Shown in pieces: positions 16,832-36,089 of a stretch of DNA of 36,089 nt (the first letter of the stretch is position 1; every line of letters starts with the position of its first letter). Source of the DNA: Pirellulales bacterium (lineage in GTDB: Bacteria > Planctomycetota > Planctomycetia > Pirellulales > JADZDJ01); assembly GCA_035499655.1 (NCBI GenBank), contig DATJYL010000223.1:1-36089 (forward strand), written 5' to 3'. The position numbers and the translations under genes were made by a program. The notes beneath the pieces are model-generated. The model did no database searches. It was not told where the DNA came from and saw only the letters and a program-made list of their open reading frames with translations.

Positions 16832-17062
16832 ATCGCTCTTGACCCGGCCGGCCCGATTGTGATTCGATTGGTAGTCTGGGCAAAGCCGTGCCCTATCTCT
16901 AGGCCATAAAAACGGTTGCGAAGGCACAAACGGGGCGACACGGTCCAGCGGCTAAGTCGTTGTGACGCCAATAGTTCGCGTCGGCAACTCATAGATCGAT
17001 ACCAGGCGCAAGGATGTGCCGCGAGCAGGCCTTGTGGGCACGTGCTCGTCGTAGGATTGATT

Positions 17063-17659
17063 GTGATCGATGTTCATCAACTCAGCGACGAGCAGTTGGC
17101 GGCGGAAGCGGCCCGCGAAGGGTCCGACGGCCCCGCCTTTGTAGAACTGGTGGAGCGATTTCGCCAGCGGGTGTGGCATATTTGCTATCGCTTGCTGGGC
17201 AACGAACACGACGCCAGCGACGCCGCCCAGGAAGTTTTCGTGCGGTTGTTTTTGCACCGCGCCAAGTTTGAAGGCCGCTCTAAGTACAGCACCTGGGTAC
17301 ACGGAATTGCGGTCCGCACCTGTTTAACGTTGCGGCGTGGGCGTGGGCGGCGACAGCGGCGCGAAAGCGTGACCAGCGAGGAAACCATCGAGGCCCATTC
17401 GCCCGGCACTCCAGCGCCCACGGAAGGATTATCGCTCGATTTGCTGCAAATGCTCGACATATTGGGCGAAGAAGATCGAGCACTACTGATCCTTAAATAC
17501 GCGGAAAATTATAGCCACGAAGAGTTAGCGGAAATTTTCGGATTGAGCGTTAGCGCGTGCAAAATGCGGATTAGCCGCGCGCGAGAAAAAATTCAACAGC
17601 GATTTGGCGACAAAACAGACGAACCCCATAGCACGAAAAACGGAAATGATGAAACTTAA
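17063..17659 (+). CDS. ECF-type RNA polymerase sigma factor
   Basis: This is a group 4 (ECF) sigma-70 family factor of 198 residues. Region 2 is seen in FVELVERFRQRVWHICYRLL and NEHDASDAAQEVFVRLF, where DAAQEVF is the core-binding/-10 recognition block. Region 4 is seen in LLILKYAENYSHEELAEIFG and SVSACKMRISRAREKIQQRF, a helix-turn-helix for the -35 element. A variable linker joins them. The GTG at 17063 is preferred because AGGA lies 6 bases upstream and the protein then begins just before region 2; a longer reading from TTG 16916 is unlikely. No zinc-finger anti-sigma factor follows. The next gene, a short protein with a hydrophobic segment, is 81 bases downstream and is a candidate regulator by position only. 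Confidence 0.93.
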   Translation: MIDVHQLSDEQLAAEAAREGSDGPAFVELVERFRQRVWHICYRLLGNEHDASDAAQEVFVRLFLHRAKFEGRSKYSTWVHGIAVRTCLTLRRGRGRRQRRESVTSEETIEAHSPGTPAPTEGLSLDLLQMLDILGEEDRALLILKYAENYSHEELAEIFGLSVSACKMRISRAREKIQQRFGDKTDEPHSTKNGNDET

Positions 17660-30689: not shown

Positions 30690-31073
30690 TCAATCGTCGT
30701 AGCGCGCGCGGCGATAATATCCGCGGCGATAGAAAGGCATACGGGTGCCAGGGGGCGGGGCGGTCACGCCTTCGCGGAAGAAATATCCGCCCATCAAGCG
30801 ATAGAAAAACAGCAGCAGAAACGCGCCACCCGTGCCGACGGCAAAACCTAACGGACTGATCGGTGAGATGTGCCGGTCGGAAAAGTAAGACAAAATGCCG
30901 CAGCCGATGATGGTGCCGCCGATGCCCATCATCAGCGTGGCGATGGTCCCGCCCGGGTCGCGTCCCGGCATAATGGCTTTGGCCAGCAAACCCACCAACG
31001 TGCCAAAGCCGACCCACACCAACAATTCGTTGGCGGCCTGCTGCACGGCGGTGGAGAATTCAACGTCGGCCAT
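30690..31073 (-). CDS. GlsB/YeaQ/YmgE-like small membrane protein
   Basis: The 127-residue protein has three hydrophobic segments: VWVGFGTLVGLLAKAIMPG, then GTIATLMMGIGGTIIGCGIL, and FAVGTGGAFLLLFFYRLMGG. The Gly-rich GxxxGxLAxxxxPGxDPGG and MMGIGGTIIG motifs mark the transglycosylase-associated (GlsB/YeaQ/YmgE) family of stress-linked inner-membrane proteins of unknown mechanism. An unusual Arg/Tyr-rich C-terminal tail (MPFYRRGYYRRARYDD) follows. ATG 31073 is chosen because it opens the family domain; a longer reading to 31136 consists of repeat DNA. The gene is convergent with the GNAT gene. Confidence 0.88.
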   Translation of the reverse strand: MADVEFSTAVQQAANELLVWVGFGTLVGLLAKAIMPGRDPGGTIATLMMGIGGTIIGCGILSYFSDRHISPISPLGFAVGTGGAFLLLFFYRLMGGYFFREGVTAPPPGTRMPFYRRGYYRRARYDD

Positions 31074-31792: not shown

Positions 31793-31970
31793 CGACCACC
31801 TCCTGCGGCATTCGCGCGGGGATTCCTCAAGCGCAGCGATTTGCTGGCCGCGGCAGGCGTACTCTGCCAGCGGGTGCAAATTCTAAAATCGTTACAATCG
31901 TTATCGTCTATCCAAGCGACCAACTTGCGAACGATTTGGGAAATCGGACCTGCTAGCACGCAGATTTGAA

Positions 31971-32123: not shown

Positions 32124-32238
32124 GCTGAATTGGCTACTAGTCGCGGAAGCTGTCGAGCCGGGGTATGATGAATTTAGCGCCTGATCGGCCAATTGGGACA
32201 GAATTGCCGTCGGGACAGAATCTATGCGGAGGCGAAAC

Positions 32239-35200
32239 ATGATGCTTTCCTTTGCGCGCGGGCGAGTGCCTGCCCGAGAGCGTGTTCCCGTGCCGTTTCA
32301 TGCACGGTCCGTGTCAACCGCTGCGGCATTGCTGTTCATTGTTTCGCTAGCATTGCTGGCTTGTGGAGCGACTCCTGCCGGGGCCCAAGTACAGCAAGTT
32401 CCCATCATGGCGCCAGCCCAAGTTCCGATGGGGGGCGGGCGCTCGTATCCCACGCAAACATATTTTATTGCATTCAATTCGCTCAACGACGGCGATTACA
32501 AAACCGCGCTGGATCAGTATACCCGTGAATTGCGCGGCGCCTATCGGAACGGGCAAACGCGCTGGCTCGATTCCATTTGCGATTACACAATGGTGGGCGA
32601 ATGCGATTACCGGTTGGGCGATTATTCCGACGCGCTGGAAAACTTCAATGCAGCATTGCAATTGTACATGGCCAATTCGGATTGGATGCTGCGCGTGCAA
32701 TTTCCACCCACGCTGGGTTCCTCGGGCCCTTCCCGCGGCGCGCCGTGGGGTAAAAGCACCCGGGGGACTGCCCCGGCGCGCATTCCAGAAACCCTGCCGA
32801 TTGGCGTCGGCAATTTTGATCCCAATCAATTGAATGCAGTGTTGCAGCGCGGCGGCGGTGTGATTTCGCCACCCATGTATTTGTCGATCAACGTGCAGGA
32901 AATCGTGCGTTGCACGTGTCTGGCAATGCTGCGCCGCCAAGAAATTTTGGGGCCGCTGGTAACCCATGACACGCTGACCGACGAGGTGCTAGCCACGACG
33001 AGCCGGCGACAAGGCCCGCCCAACCATTGGTCGGAAGCGTGGCTCGATGCGTTGCAAGCCACAGCCTATAACTCGGCCGGGAAAGAGGGCCAGGCCATTG
33101 CGCTGCTCAAGCGTTCGCTGTTGATGCAAGGACAGTTCGATCACCCATTGACCGGGTTGGCCTTGTTGCAATTGGGACAGTTGTCGATGGAGACGGGCGA
33201 TTACAAAACTGCCGGCGGATATTTCGAGGAAGCCACTTATACCGGCTACGATTATTCCGACGCCACGGTGATTACCGAGGGATTCAAAAAACTGTTTTTG
33301 GCGCATCTTCTGGCCGGCGATGTCGCTACGTTGGATACGCTTCTTACGCAGGCCGAGGGTTGGGCCCGGAATAAGGCCCGCGAATTGGAAGCTACGATCT
33401 TGCTGATGGCGGCGGAAAGTCTGGCCGATCGGGGTGATCGCCAACAAGCGGTCGCACTATTGGGCGACGCAACCGGAACCATCGGCCGCCGCACCATGGG
33501 AATGTGCGAAATCGGTTCACAACTGTATTTCCTGACCGCGTTAACGCAATATCAAGCCGGGGCCATCAACTCCGGCGATACCGCGTTTAACAACGCTTTG
33601 CAATGGTACAAAAACGGCGGTTCGAAATGGCTGTTTCAAATCGGGCAGGCTGACAATTTGTGCGTGAGCAATCCAAACGGTCGGTACGATCGTCACGTGG
33701 CGATGCCGCTGTACGCCGACATGCTGCGCGATCCGACACCTGCCGATTGGGCGATGCAACCGTTGGAAAGTTTGGCCGTGATGGCGACGCCACATCCGTT
33801 GCCTTTTGAGCATTGGTTGGAAATCGCCGTGCAGCAGGCCACGTCGGCCGATGCCGCGGCGCAAGGGGCATTGTTGATCTCAGATCTGGCTCGGCGGCAT
33901 CGTTTTTTAAGCACACAACCGTTTGGCGGCCGGCTGTTGGCGTTGCGCTGGCTGTTGGAAGCGCCGCCGGAAACGCTGGACAAACAGGCCGCTTTGCAGC
34001 GGCAGGAATTGTTGACTCGCTACCCCAAATATGCCGAGGCAGCCGACAAAGTTCGCCAACTGCGTGCGGACATTACTCAAGCCGGCGTCATTGCCGACGC
34101 GCGCGACGCCCAACACGCGCTGAGCGGCAAATTCAACGAGCTGGCCGCGCTCACCACTACGCAGGAAAACATTTTGCACGAGATTGCCGTGCGGCGCGAG
34201 CCGGCCAACTTCGTATTTCCCCCTGTTCGCAGCGTGAAACAAGTGCAGCATGACCTGGGCAGCGACAAACTGCTGCTAACGTATTTCGCCACCAGTCATG
34301 CTATGTACGGCGGATTTTACTCCAGCGACCGCAGCTCGCTGTGGAAAATCGACAACCCTGCGTTGTTGGAAAAGCGGACTGTGGCATTGTTGAAGGCACT
34401 TGGAAATTACGACGCTAATCACGAGCTGCAAGAAGCCCAGCTCAGCGACGAGATGTGGCAGCAGGCGGCCAAAGATGTGCTGGCTTCGGCGCTCAGTAAC
34501 CCCAAAACCGCCTTCAATGCCGAGTTTAAGGAACTGATTATCGTTCCTGACGGTCTGATGTGGTACGTGCCGTTTGGCATTCTGCCGATGGGCGATCCGA
34601 AGGACAACACTCCGCTTATTTCGCGGATGCGGATTCGTTATGCGCCGACGGTGGGGCTAGCAATGAACGACCGCGCCGGGCGAAAAGCCGCGCCCGATTT
34701 GGGAGTGGTGGCCGGCAAGCTTTATCCCAGTCAGTCGGCGGATTTTACCGCCGGGGCGCTGGACGATATCCGTCACGCAGCCACGCATGCGGTGGCGCTG
34801 CACGCTCCGTTGCCTGCCATTTCGCCTTTGGTGGGAGCGATGCTGGACGGCGTGGTGGTGCTGGACGATATTCCAGCCACGACTCCGCAATCTGGTCCGT
34901 ACGATTGGTCGCCGGTGCCGCTGGAAAAAAACAACAAGAACGTGGGTGCGCTGAGCACGTGGCTGGAACTGCCTTGGAAAAATACCGATGTGTTCGTGTT
35001 TCCCAGCTTTCACACGGCGGCGGAAAACGGTTTGAAAACCGTCGGCACAACGCCCGGCAACGATTTGTTTTTGGCGACGACCGGTTTGATGGCCACAGGC
35101 GCGCGAACGATTTTAATCAGCCGCTGGCGAACCGGCGGCCAAACCGCGTTGGATTTGGTGCGGCAGTTCATCCAAGAGCTGCCTTTCTCCGCGGCTGACG

Positions 35201-35643
35201 AAGCCTGGCAAAGGGCCGTGGAATTAGTGAGCCAATCGCCGTTGGATCCGCAGCGCGAGCCGCGCATCAGGTTAAAGCCCGACTCCCCGCCGATCAATGC
35301 GCAGCATCCATTTTTTTGGGCCGGATATTTGTTGATCGATAGCGGGGCCACGCCGCAAGAAATCGATCAGTTGCAAAACAAGCCACAAATCATGAAACTC
35401 GATACGAAGAAAGCGGACAACAACGCCGCCGCCCAAAATCCCGCCAATGCGCCGTCTGCCAACGTGCCGCCTGCGGTTCCGCCACAACCGGCCGACGCGA
35501 ACGCCGTGAATGCAAAATCGTTCGAAATAAAATCGGGCAACGCCAAAGCGGGCGAAGAAAAATCGGGTGACACCAAGCCGCTTACGCTTCCCGAACTGAA
35601 TGCGCCGCAAAAAACTGGCGAGATGAAACCTGGCGGGACTTGA
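32239..35643 (+). CDS. Exported TPR-CHAT protein lacking the catalytic cysteine
   Basis: The protein is 1134 residues. ATG 32239 has GGAGG 6 bases upstream. A signal peptide is likely (AAALLFIVSLALLACGATPA after a long basic leader), so it is exported. Residues about 60-600 are TPR-like helical repeats (YFIAFNSLNDGDYKTALDQY, YRLGDYSDALENFNAALQLY). From about residue 690 to 1080 is a CHAT (caspase-like) domain: KELIIVPDGLMWYVPFGILP, candidate His H855 in ALHAPLPA, then VFPSFHTAAE and LMATGARTILISRWRTGGQT. Where CHAT proteases have A-C-E-T there is S-F-H-T (F924, H925), and no Cys exists anywhere after about residue 475, so proteolysis by the usual mechanism is impossible. The tail is Ala/Pro/Lys-rich and disordered. 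The 3' end is 8 bases from the next convergent gene. Confidence 0.9.
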   Translation: MMLSFARGRVPARERVPVPFHARSVSTAAALLFIVSLALLACGATPAGAQVQQVPIMAPAQVPMGGGRSYPTQTYFIAFNSLNDGDYKTALDQYTRELRGAYRNGQTRWLDSICDYTMVGECDYRLGDYSDALENFNAALQLYMANSDWMLRVQFPPTLGSSGPSRGAPWGKSTRGTAPARIPETLPIGVGNFDPNQLNAVLQRGGGVISPPMYLSINVQEIVRCTCLAMLRRQEILGPLVTHDTLTDEVLATTSRRQGPPNHWSEAWLDALQATAYNSAGKEGQAIALLKRSLLMQGQFDHPLTGLALLQLGQLSMETGDYKTAGGYFEEATYTGYDYSDATVITEGFKKLFLAHLLAGDVATLDTLLTQAEGWARNKARELEATILLMAAESLADRGDRQQAVALLGDATGTIGRRTMGMCEIGSQLYFLTALTQYQAGAINSGDTAFNNALQWYKNGGSKWLFQIGQADNLCVSNPNGRYDRHVAMPLYADMLRDPTPADWAMQPLESLAVMATPHPLPFEHWLEIAVQQATSADAAAQGALLISDLARRHRFLSTQPFGGRLLALRWLLEAPPETLDKQAALQRQELLTRYPKYAEAADKVRQLRADITQAGVIADARDAQHALSGKFNELAALTTTQENILHEIAVRREPANFVFPPVRSVKQVQHDLGSDKLLLTYFATSHAMYGGFYSSDRSSLWKIDNPALLEKRTVALLKALGNYDANHELQEAQLSDEMWQQAAKDVLASALSNPKTAFNAEFKELIIVPDGLMWYVPFGILPMGDPKDNTPLISRMRIRYAPTVGLAMNDRAGRKAAPDLGVVAGKLYPSQSADFTAGALDDIRHAATHAVALHAPLPAISPLVGAMLDGVVVLDDIPATTPQSGPYDWSPVPLEKNNKNVGALSTWLELPWKNTDVFVFPSFHTAAENGLKTVGTTPGNDLFLATTGLMATGARTILISRWRTGGQTALDLVRQFIQELPFSAADEAWQRAVELVSQSPLDPQREPRIRLKPDSPPINAQHPFFWAGYLLIDSGATPQEIDQLQNKPQIMKLDTKKADNNAAAQNPANAPSANVPPAVPPQPADANAVNAKSFEIKSGNAKAGEEKSGDTKPLTLPELNAPQKTGEMKPGGT

Positions 35644-35651
35644 ACCCCTCG

Positions 35652-36089
35652 TTATGTCCGCGGCAGGCCTTTGGCCATTAGTGTGTTTTCCAAATCTTGC
35701 TGCTGTCGCTGCAGATTGGTCATTTGATCGGCTAGATCGGGCCGTTTGCCAGCCATGTCGACAGCTTCGTCGATCCAGCCGCGTGCTTCAGCGGCCCATT
35801 TGGCGAGGGTTTCTTTCGGCACATCAGCTTTAGCCAATTGAACTTCAATGCCCAGCGCCCTAGCGCCAAAGCTGCGCCAGGCCCAACTGTCTGGGTTGTC
35901 GGGCGCAAGCGCAATGGCTTTGCGCACATCTTCCAGGGCCCCTTTGCGATATTCCAGTTTTTTTGCCACCGTGAAGGTGGGCGAGCTGGAAAGAACGCTT
36001 TTGAACTTGGCATTCGCCGCATTCCAATCGGCCAGCGCTTCACTGTGCGGATCAGCCTTGAGCTGAATCACTCGGGCGTCGTCTTTCAG
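35652..36089 (-). CDS. TPR-like protein, 5' end beyond the window
   Basis: The frame runs on beyond the window edge, and the visible 146 residues are the C-terminal part. The segment GALEDVRKAIALAPDNPDSW has the form of a tetratricopeptide helix pair, preceded by a similar one (EALADWNAANAKFKSVLSSS). The last third (KETLAKWAAEARGWIDEAVD to the stop) is helical and Gln-rich (LQRQQQDLENTLM), possibly coiled coil. There is no membrane segment in the part seen. The GTG at 36071 could be an internal start, but the open frame upstream makes that unlikely. Function unknown. It converges on the TPR-CHAT gene with an 8-base gap. Confidence 0.75.
   Translation of the reverse strand: MKDDARVIQLKADPHSEALADWNAANAKFKSVLSSSPTFTVAKKLEYRKGALEDVRKAIALAPDNPDSWAWRSFGARALGIEVQLAKADVPKETLAKWAAEARGWIDEAVDMAGKRPDLADQMTNLQRQQQDLENTLMAKGLPRT

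Follow-up and report, generated by a model that had tools for sequence, protein, structure and literature searches.

The window analyzed here, a 36,089-nucleotide stretch of a Pirellulales bacterium (contig DATJYL010000223.1), carries 446 bases from the end of its contig an open reading frame (ORF) for a 1,139-amino-acid protein (32224-35643, forward strand) with a TPR part followed by a C-terminal CHAT-like domain. We believe that this protein is probably a conserved periplasmic pseudoprotease scaffold, a TPR protein whose CHAT domain has been disarmed, whose former active site would be held by a salt bridge, and for which a small lipoprotein is the candidate partner. The order, Pirellulales, was taken from the titles of the relatives' records. 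A preliminary description of the same protein counted residues from a start at 32239, which is Met6 here, so that 5 is added to its residue numbers to give ours (H855 is 860 and H925 is 930).

In the window protein the CHAT profile PF12770 scored 51.1 bits (cut-off, 24), and 80 of 80 orthologous domains matched it at an E value of 0.01 or less. The TPR_12 profile (PF13424) matched with 34.3 bits (cut-off, 30.1). An hhalign comparison of the domain family with 19 canonical CHAT domains gave a probability of 99.5 and an E value of 1.6e-22, the 19 having been picked by motif and thus providing no control for the motif itself. AlphaFold2 models of the domain and of the full-length protein reached predicted local distance difference test scores of 92.5 and 92.9 and predicted TM scores of 0.93 and 0.92, respectively. 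Among the PDB matches listed, to which all our fold rankings refer, the domain model matched best the TPR-CHAT protein of Craspase, Csx29 (7y9x, Z 25.2 over 315 residues at 3.5 Å; 7zoq, E 3e-11). Separase (5fby, Z 24.4), two chains of the anti-sigma factor DdvA (8rw5, Z 16.9; 8rot, Z 16.8), and gingipain (Z 15.3) were also matched. Neither the window protein nor its domain profile found a CHAT structure by sequence search, so that fold comparison was required; a phmmer search started from a canonical CHAT paralogue matched TPR and designed proteins but no CHAT chain. The whole model aligned with the PDB neighbors of the domain, mostly at a root mean square deviation of 9 to 23 Å where both parts align, with TPR arms that are bent differently. 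DdvA matched the whole protein in part (Z 17.0 and 16.9, about 16 Å). Taken together, the domain is predicted to have the caspase/separase-like CHAT fold that the preliminary description had recognized. The absence of any CHAT fold was ruled out by the 80 of 80 profile matches and the PDB fold matches. As a separate observation, axonemal central-pair chains also matched the domain (7n6g_1N, Z 15.8; 9ijj, Z 15.2) and may represent a eukaryotic structural protein with a caspase fold; a literature search found no paper tying these two chains to that fold.

The window protein has Cys at residues 47, 119, 127, 230, 232, 428, and 480 only, the last being the one noted earlier near residue 475, and none in the CHAT-like domain. 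For the family, 153 rows were reduced to 131 distinct domains by dropping duplicates and rows with more than 200 gaps. Only 3 of the 131 have a Cys inside columns 927 to 935, in three separate columns (locus L145 at 929, L284 at 931, and L167 at 933; G and L numbers are our handles for genomes and loci). Column 933 is Ala in 104 domains, while column 929 is Phe in 101 and Tyr in 17. No Cys stands at column 929 of a 64-row alignment (60 loci and the window, some genes being split), where 930 is His in 45 rows, and one does in a separate set of 80 sequences. In L145, C929 is accompanied by E882 and N930 and may be a chance change. A sequencing error hiding the Cys was rejected, since 131 distinct sequences agree. 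A displaced nucleophile at position 953 was likewise rejected: this column is Cys in 87 of 131 domains, sits in a helix, and is Thr in the window.

Where the catalytic Cys would have stood depends on the register. The preliminary description equated S-F-H-T (residues 928 to 931) with the A-C-E-T site of active proteases. In 13 of 13 hhalign settings, the canonical Cys fell on Ala933 (S-A-C-E-T-G against T-A-A-E-N-G) with PGFH as an insertion, so the earlier register is probably off by four. The predicted model has a short helix at 932 to 935 after a strand at 923 to 926. From these alignments, Ala933 is likelier than Phe929 to be the Cys position, and the nucleophilic Cys is absent under either register. 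The template catalytic His was unaligned in the settings that reach it, apart from S890 in one; from strand order, we infer that D881-D882 occupies its place. Among columns 690 to 1055 of the 64-row alignment, only 930 and 1028 are mostly His. Thus, neither the catalytic Cys nor the catalytic His (H..HG motif) that mark a CHAT cysteine protease was found. In Craspase, a "C-helix" carries the Cys while the protease is inactive, and proteolysis is lost on changing the Cys to Ala or Ser (C627A or C627S), according to the available portion of PMC9729208. Because the C627A precedent comes from a homologous TPR-CHAT protein, there is a strong case by analogy that proteolysis has been lost here.

The other CHAT proteins of these bacteria served as a control. 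The window genome has three further CHAT proteins by PF12770, each with His and Cys motifs, and all 17 nonfamily CHAT loci examined from 20 relatives (window genome included) retain the Cys. These 17 came from the fetched PF12770 loci only; 15 were scored by motif, including the His motif, and two (L243 and L264) by eye for the Cys. Pseudoproteases often regulate active kin, and together with the three intact paralogues, this would fit a protein that serves as a decoy for active TPR-CHAT proteases in the same cell or regulates them, the latter as the preliminary description suggested. However, in 11 of the 20 relatives (G393, G395, G397 to G404, and G167), the family gene encodes the sole CHAT protein found by PF12770, so a regulatory role is not general. 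No active CHAT gene was seen at a fixed place among the recurrent neighbors. We regard this explanation as improbable.

We then considered the loops of the former catalytic pair. Column 882 is Asp in 87 and Glu in 28 of the 131 domains and neither in 16 (gap included), and column 930 is His in 95, Arg in 25, and Gln in 5. The two columns change together: 84 of the 87 Asp rows have His at 930, while the Glu rows have Arg (10), His (10), Gln (5), or another residue (3). When the 131 rows were placed on a tree inferred with both columns left out, the two sites showed 18 and 20 changes. The observed chi-square for the association was 75.1, and none of 442 tree-aware simulations reached it (maximum, 23.2); these were the simulations of 1,500 whose parsimony changes fell within 4 of the observed 20, under a simple model on a midpoint-rooted tree. 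Such co-change speaks for contact between the two loops. Its charge-like pattern favors a salt bridge over catalysis, and H/R930 with D/E882 is probably a structural salt bridge joining the loops of the former catalytic pair.

The better-conserved polar residues of the rebuilt site are H930, D/E882, T/S931, E934, and K/R938. This conservation and the coevolution of 882 with 930 are also what would be expected of an enzyme of new chemistry built on His930 and Asp/Glu882, perhaps with Thr931, Glu934, or Lys938. The retention of Thr or Ser at 931 in 125 of 131 domains keeps a Thr/Ser nucleophile conceivable, though only weakly. However, position 930 is Arg or Gln in 30 domains, 882 lacks an acid in 16, and the two change as a charge pair, which makes a new enzyme unlikely. 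The preliminary description had singled out H855 and H925 for a different chemistry. The first (860) is not conserved, being His in 5 of 64 rows. The second (930) is indeed conserved, but a different chemistry by it is weakened because Arg or Gln replaces His in those 30 domains and 930 covaries with D/E882.

The family is nearly universal in its order. Of the order's 196 genomes, 188 gave a match (weak only in G538, at E 7e-5), as did 56 of 57 relatives searched (window genome included); the window genome has a single copy. In a sample of the phylum (392 genomes), strong matches were limited to 12 genomes of the order and G186, with weak matches in 7 others. In a second sample (294 genomes), 5 genomes of the order and G186 made up the 6 strong matches, and 53 others were weak. 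A scan of public genomes detected no relative when the window protein alone was used, and 327 of 419 candidate stretches when the alignment was used. We retained the best 80, all of which are titled Planctomycetota, except L129 (Candidatus Nealsonbacteria) and L179 ("bacterium"). A single branch with 100/100 support separates the family from the 19 canonical CHAT domains in a tree that used every third family row and one divergent copy. The change is thus common to a clade and order-wide. Three observations stand apart. In G186, a genome outside the class with 6% contamination, a family member and the lipoprotein lie on a 6.3-kb contig (G186:C61; L011, L114, and L231) that is probably mis-binned rather than transferred. 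Two genomes, G421 and G410, have two full-length copies each on separate contigs (L059/L070 and L080/L086). In family f2 (L116 and L277 to L286; G504, G512, G531, and G547), the protein evolves fast or is missing and the lipoprotein is retained, which offers a natural experiment on the protein's role.

Against a congener (75 to 77% identity), the ratio of nonsynonymous to synonymous substitution rates (dN/dS) was about 0.107 in the TPR part and 0.106 in the CHAT-like domain, compared to 0.31 in the tail and 0.59 in the signal peptide, values that are rough because dS is near or above 1. The 13-residue signature of the former Cys loop has a mean conservation of 0.76 per column, compared to 0.57 for the domain. 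The protein is plainly maintained, under purifying selection. A decaying, functionless CHAT protease gene could account for the four genomes of one family without the gene and for the broken frames in L109 (G398) and L115 (G333), where decay or a sequence error has split the gene across two reading frames in otherwise good genomes. Retention of the gene in 188 of 196 genomes, the dN/dS of about 0.11 in the CHAT-like domain, and the excess conservation of the signature speak against decay, which we consider extremely improbable.

As the preliminary description held, the protein is probably exported; its place would be the periplasm or the surface. The signal peptide was judged by eye with no predictor, and the orthologue alignment has an AxAQ consensus at the corresponding place. 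In the mechanism that we propose, the caspase fold and TPR arm would have been retained, while Ala mostly took the place of the Cys nucleophile and nothing corresponds to the catalytic His. The mouth of the former active site would have been rebuilt around the conserved L-P-G-[FY]-H-T-A-A-E loop. With moderate confidence, we suggest that the TPR arm and the locked cleft hold a peptide or protein in the envelope as a scaffold or ligand-binding module, and a binding module, first raised in the preliminary description, stays the best guess. Overall, the observation of that description is confirmed and is more general than it stated, and its interpretation is partly supported, being right in kind and wrong in residue detail.

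The first candidate for a partner or ligand is the lipoprotein encoded head-to-head with the ORF. Its family has the pattern GCQVDVGGQTLPSPYYxxDDVQYFPPGPEFKLxxEAAA and no match in Pfam or NCBIfam. Of 61 loci, 47 have a lipoprotein match upstream, and in an enlarged, partly redundant set, the lipoprotein is head-to-head with the ORF in 99 of 141 loci. Within the order, 189 of 196 genomes have it. Between the divergent genes lies a conserved element. CGTTATCG was found in 45 of 87 distinct intergenic stretches (expected, 0.8), and GACGATAACG, with at most one mismatch, was found upstream of 65 of 103 lipoprotein genes, mostly 80 to 125 bases before the start, compared to 0 of 103 for shuffled sequence. 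In the window genome, the fuller form AATCGTTACAATCGTTATCGTC has one exact site and one more at 3 mismatches. Near 8 sister-group lipoproteins, the 9-base core GACGATAAC (one mismatch allowed) was not seen. The element reads like a dedicated promoter or operator.

Several points weigh against the proposed scaffold and its partner. Of the 141 loci, 30 have at least 1.5 kb upstream and no lipoprotein gene nearby (8 more are too short upstream). In 9 of 9 genomes of a sister group (same class, outside the order), the lipoprotein is present and no full-length family member is, and 8 lipoprotein loci examined there have other neighbors, with no TPR-CHAT gene adjoining. Four genomes of the order (G504, G512, G531, and G547) have the lipoprotein and no detectable family member. 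For the domain itself, the Cys register is disputed, being Ala933 by profile and Phe929 by strand order, and activity through some other nucleophile is conceivable. Because the sister group has the lipoprotein beside other neighbors, the lipoprotein is older and the pairing is specific to the order. Because it also exists with no pseudo-CHAT partner, the case for it as the ligand is weak to moderate.

Two more specific roles in the envelope can be drawn from the same data. The protein could be an envelope sensor in a signaling chain, like the TPR-CHAT part of DdvA, whose chains match the domain and part of the whole protein; the element in the divergent intergenic region would suit such a sensor. 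However, no transmembrane segment was evident by eye and no anti-sigma family was among the Pfam matches of the ORF, no sigma factor was among the recurrent neighbors listed, and the only extracytoplasmic function (ECF)-like sigma gene seen is about 15 kb away (16916-17659). This makes a sensor rather unlikely. The second builds on the scaffold: an order-wide envelope module in which a periplasmic pseudo-CHAT receptor binds, in the cleft locked by 882 and 930, the lipoprotein segment LPSPYYxxDDVQYFPPGPEFKL as a pseudosubstrate, with one divergent promoter serving both genes. We hold this version only tentatively and think it doubtful as a whole; if true, a caspase-fold protein would have turned into a tethering receptor.

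Coordinates of the features discussed, in window positions.
Feature	Position	Strand	Basis or remark
Small membrane protein gene, next after the lipoprotein gene	30690..31073	-	Weakly like NF007771 (45 bits; cut-off, 129)
Small lipoprotein gene, 91 amino acids	31517..31792	-	LTGC lipobox by eye, ..GQNLPSGYYLSSQVQYFPPGNQFPLTNEAAA..; divergent from the ORF
Conserved element AATCGTTACAATCGTTATCGTC	31887..31908	+	Between the divergent genes; core GACGATAACG on the other strand
TPR/pseudo-CHAT ORF	32224..35643	+	Alternative starts 32239 and 32242; orthologues in 188/196 genomes of the order
Probable signal peptide, residues 1-54	32224..32385	+	Basic n-region, hydrophobic core, ..PAGA|QV; by eye
TPR/helical superhelix, about residues 70-655	32431..34188	+	PF13424; helical pairs in the predicted model
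CHAT-like (caspase-fold) domain, about residues 665-1041, no Cys	34216..35346	+	PF12770, model, PDB matches, hhalign
Asp881-Asp882, end of the strand expected to bear the catalytic His	34864..34869	+	Strand order; the profile alignment does not show it
Former Cys loop, residues 926-938, Ala933 at the Cys place	34999..35037	+	Signature L-P-G-[FY]-[HR]-[TS]-[AP]-A-E-x-x-L-[KR]; profile alignments
C-terminal tail, residues 1047-1139, low complexity, little conserved	35362..35640	+	dN/dS about 0.31; 35% identity with the nearest relative

Of the 61 loci, 19 have a relative of the small membrane protein upstream. On the other side, a convergent ORF (35652-36089, reverse strand) ends 8 bases past the pseudo-CHAT stop, is open at the contig end, and has no NCBIfam match.

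Among known systems, Csx29 of type III-E CRISPR (Craspase) likewise combines a TPR arm with a CHAT domain and is the nearest PDB fold. Its C-helix holds the Cys in an autoinhibited state, as described in the available portion of PMC9729208, and the window protein has a short helix at 932 to 935. Unlike Csx29, the window protein has neither the Cys nor a matching His, is probably exported, and is nearly universal in one order. The 20 window ORFs scanned with Pfam include no cas gene, and hence no Cas7-11 neighbor of the kind that marks Csx29, and no CRISPR search was made. The protease domain of separase has the caspase fold in common with the window protein, which is bacterial, lacks the dyad, and is probably exported. 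DdvA (PDB 8rot and 8rw5) has, as here, a CHAT-like domain outside CRISPR and by its PDB title is a transmembrane anti-sigma factor. A literature search of titles and abstract openings found neither a DdvA paper nor one describing a Pirellulales CHAT family.

The closest parallel in kind is the pseudo-orthocaspases (C14) of cyanobacteria and alphaproteobacteria, in which the His-Cys pair is replaced and the replacement is conserved across whole groups, according to the available portion of PMC6426788. From that portion, they resemble the window family in the caspase fold, the replaced catalytic pair, and the group-wide conservation; the words CHAT and planctomycet are absent from the main text of that paper. 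No Peptidase_C14 was among the Pfam matches of the window protein at an E value of 1 or less, a result obtained with no comparison to the C14 profile itself. Thus, caspase-fold pseudoproteases are already known, mostly as C14 pseudo-orthocaspases. Here, nearly all genomes of one order retain a probably exported CHAT pseudoprotease, and for about half of the relatives examined it is the cell's only CHAT protein. Its conservation implies that the fold can be kept for a purpose other than cutting. The family would offer a stringent test of the role of a caspase fold once catalysis is gone and a handle on an envelope function specific to one order of planctomycetes.

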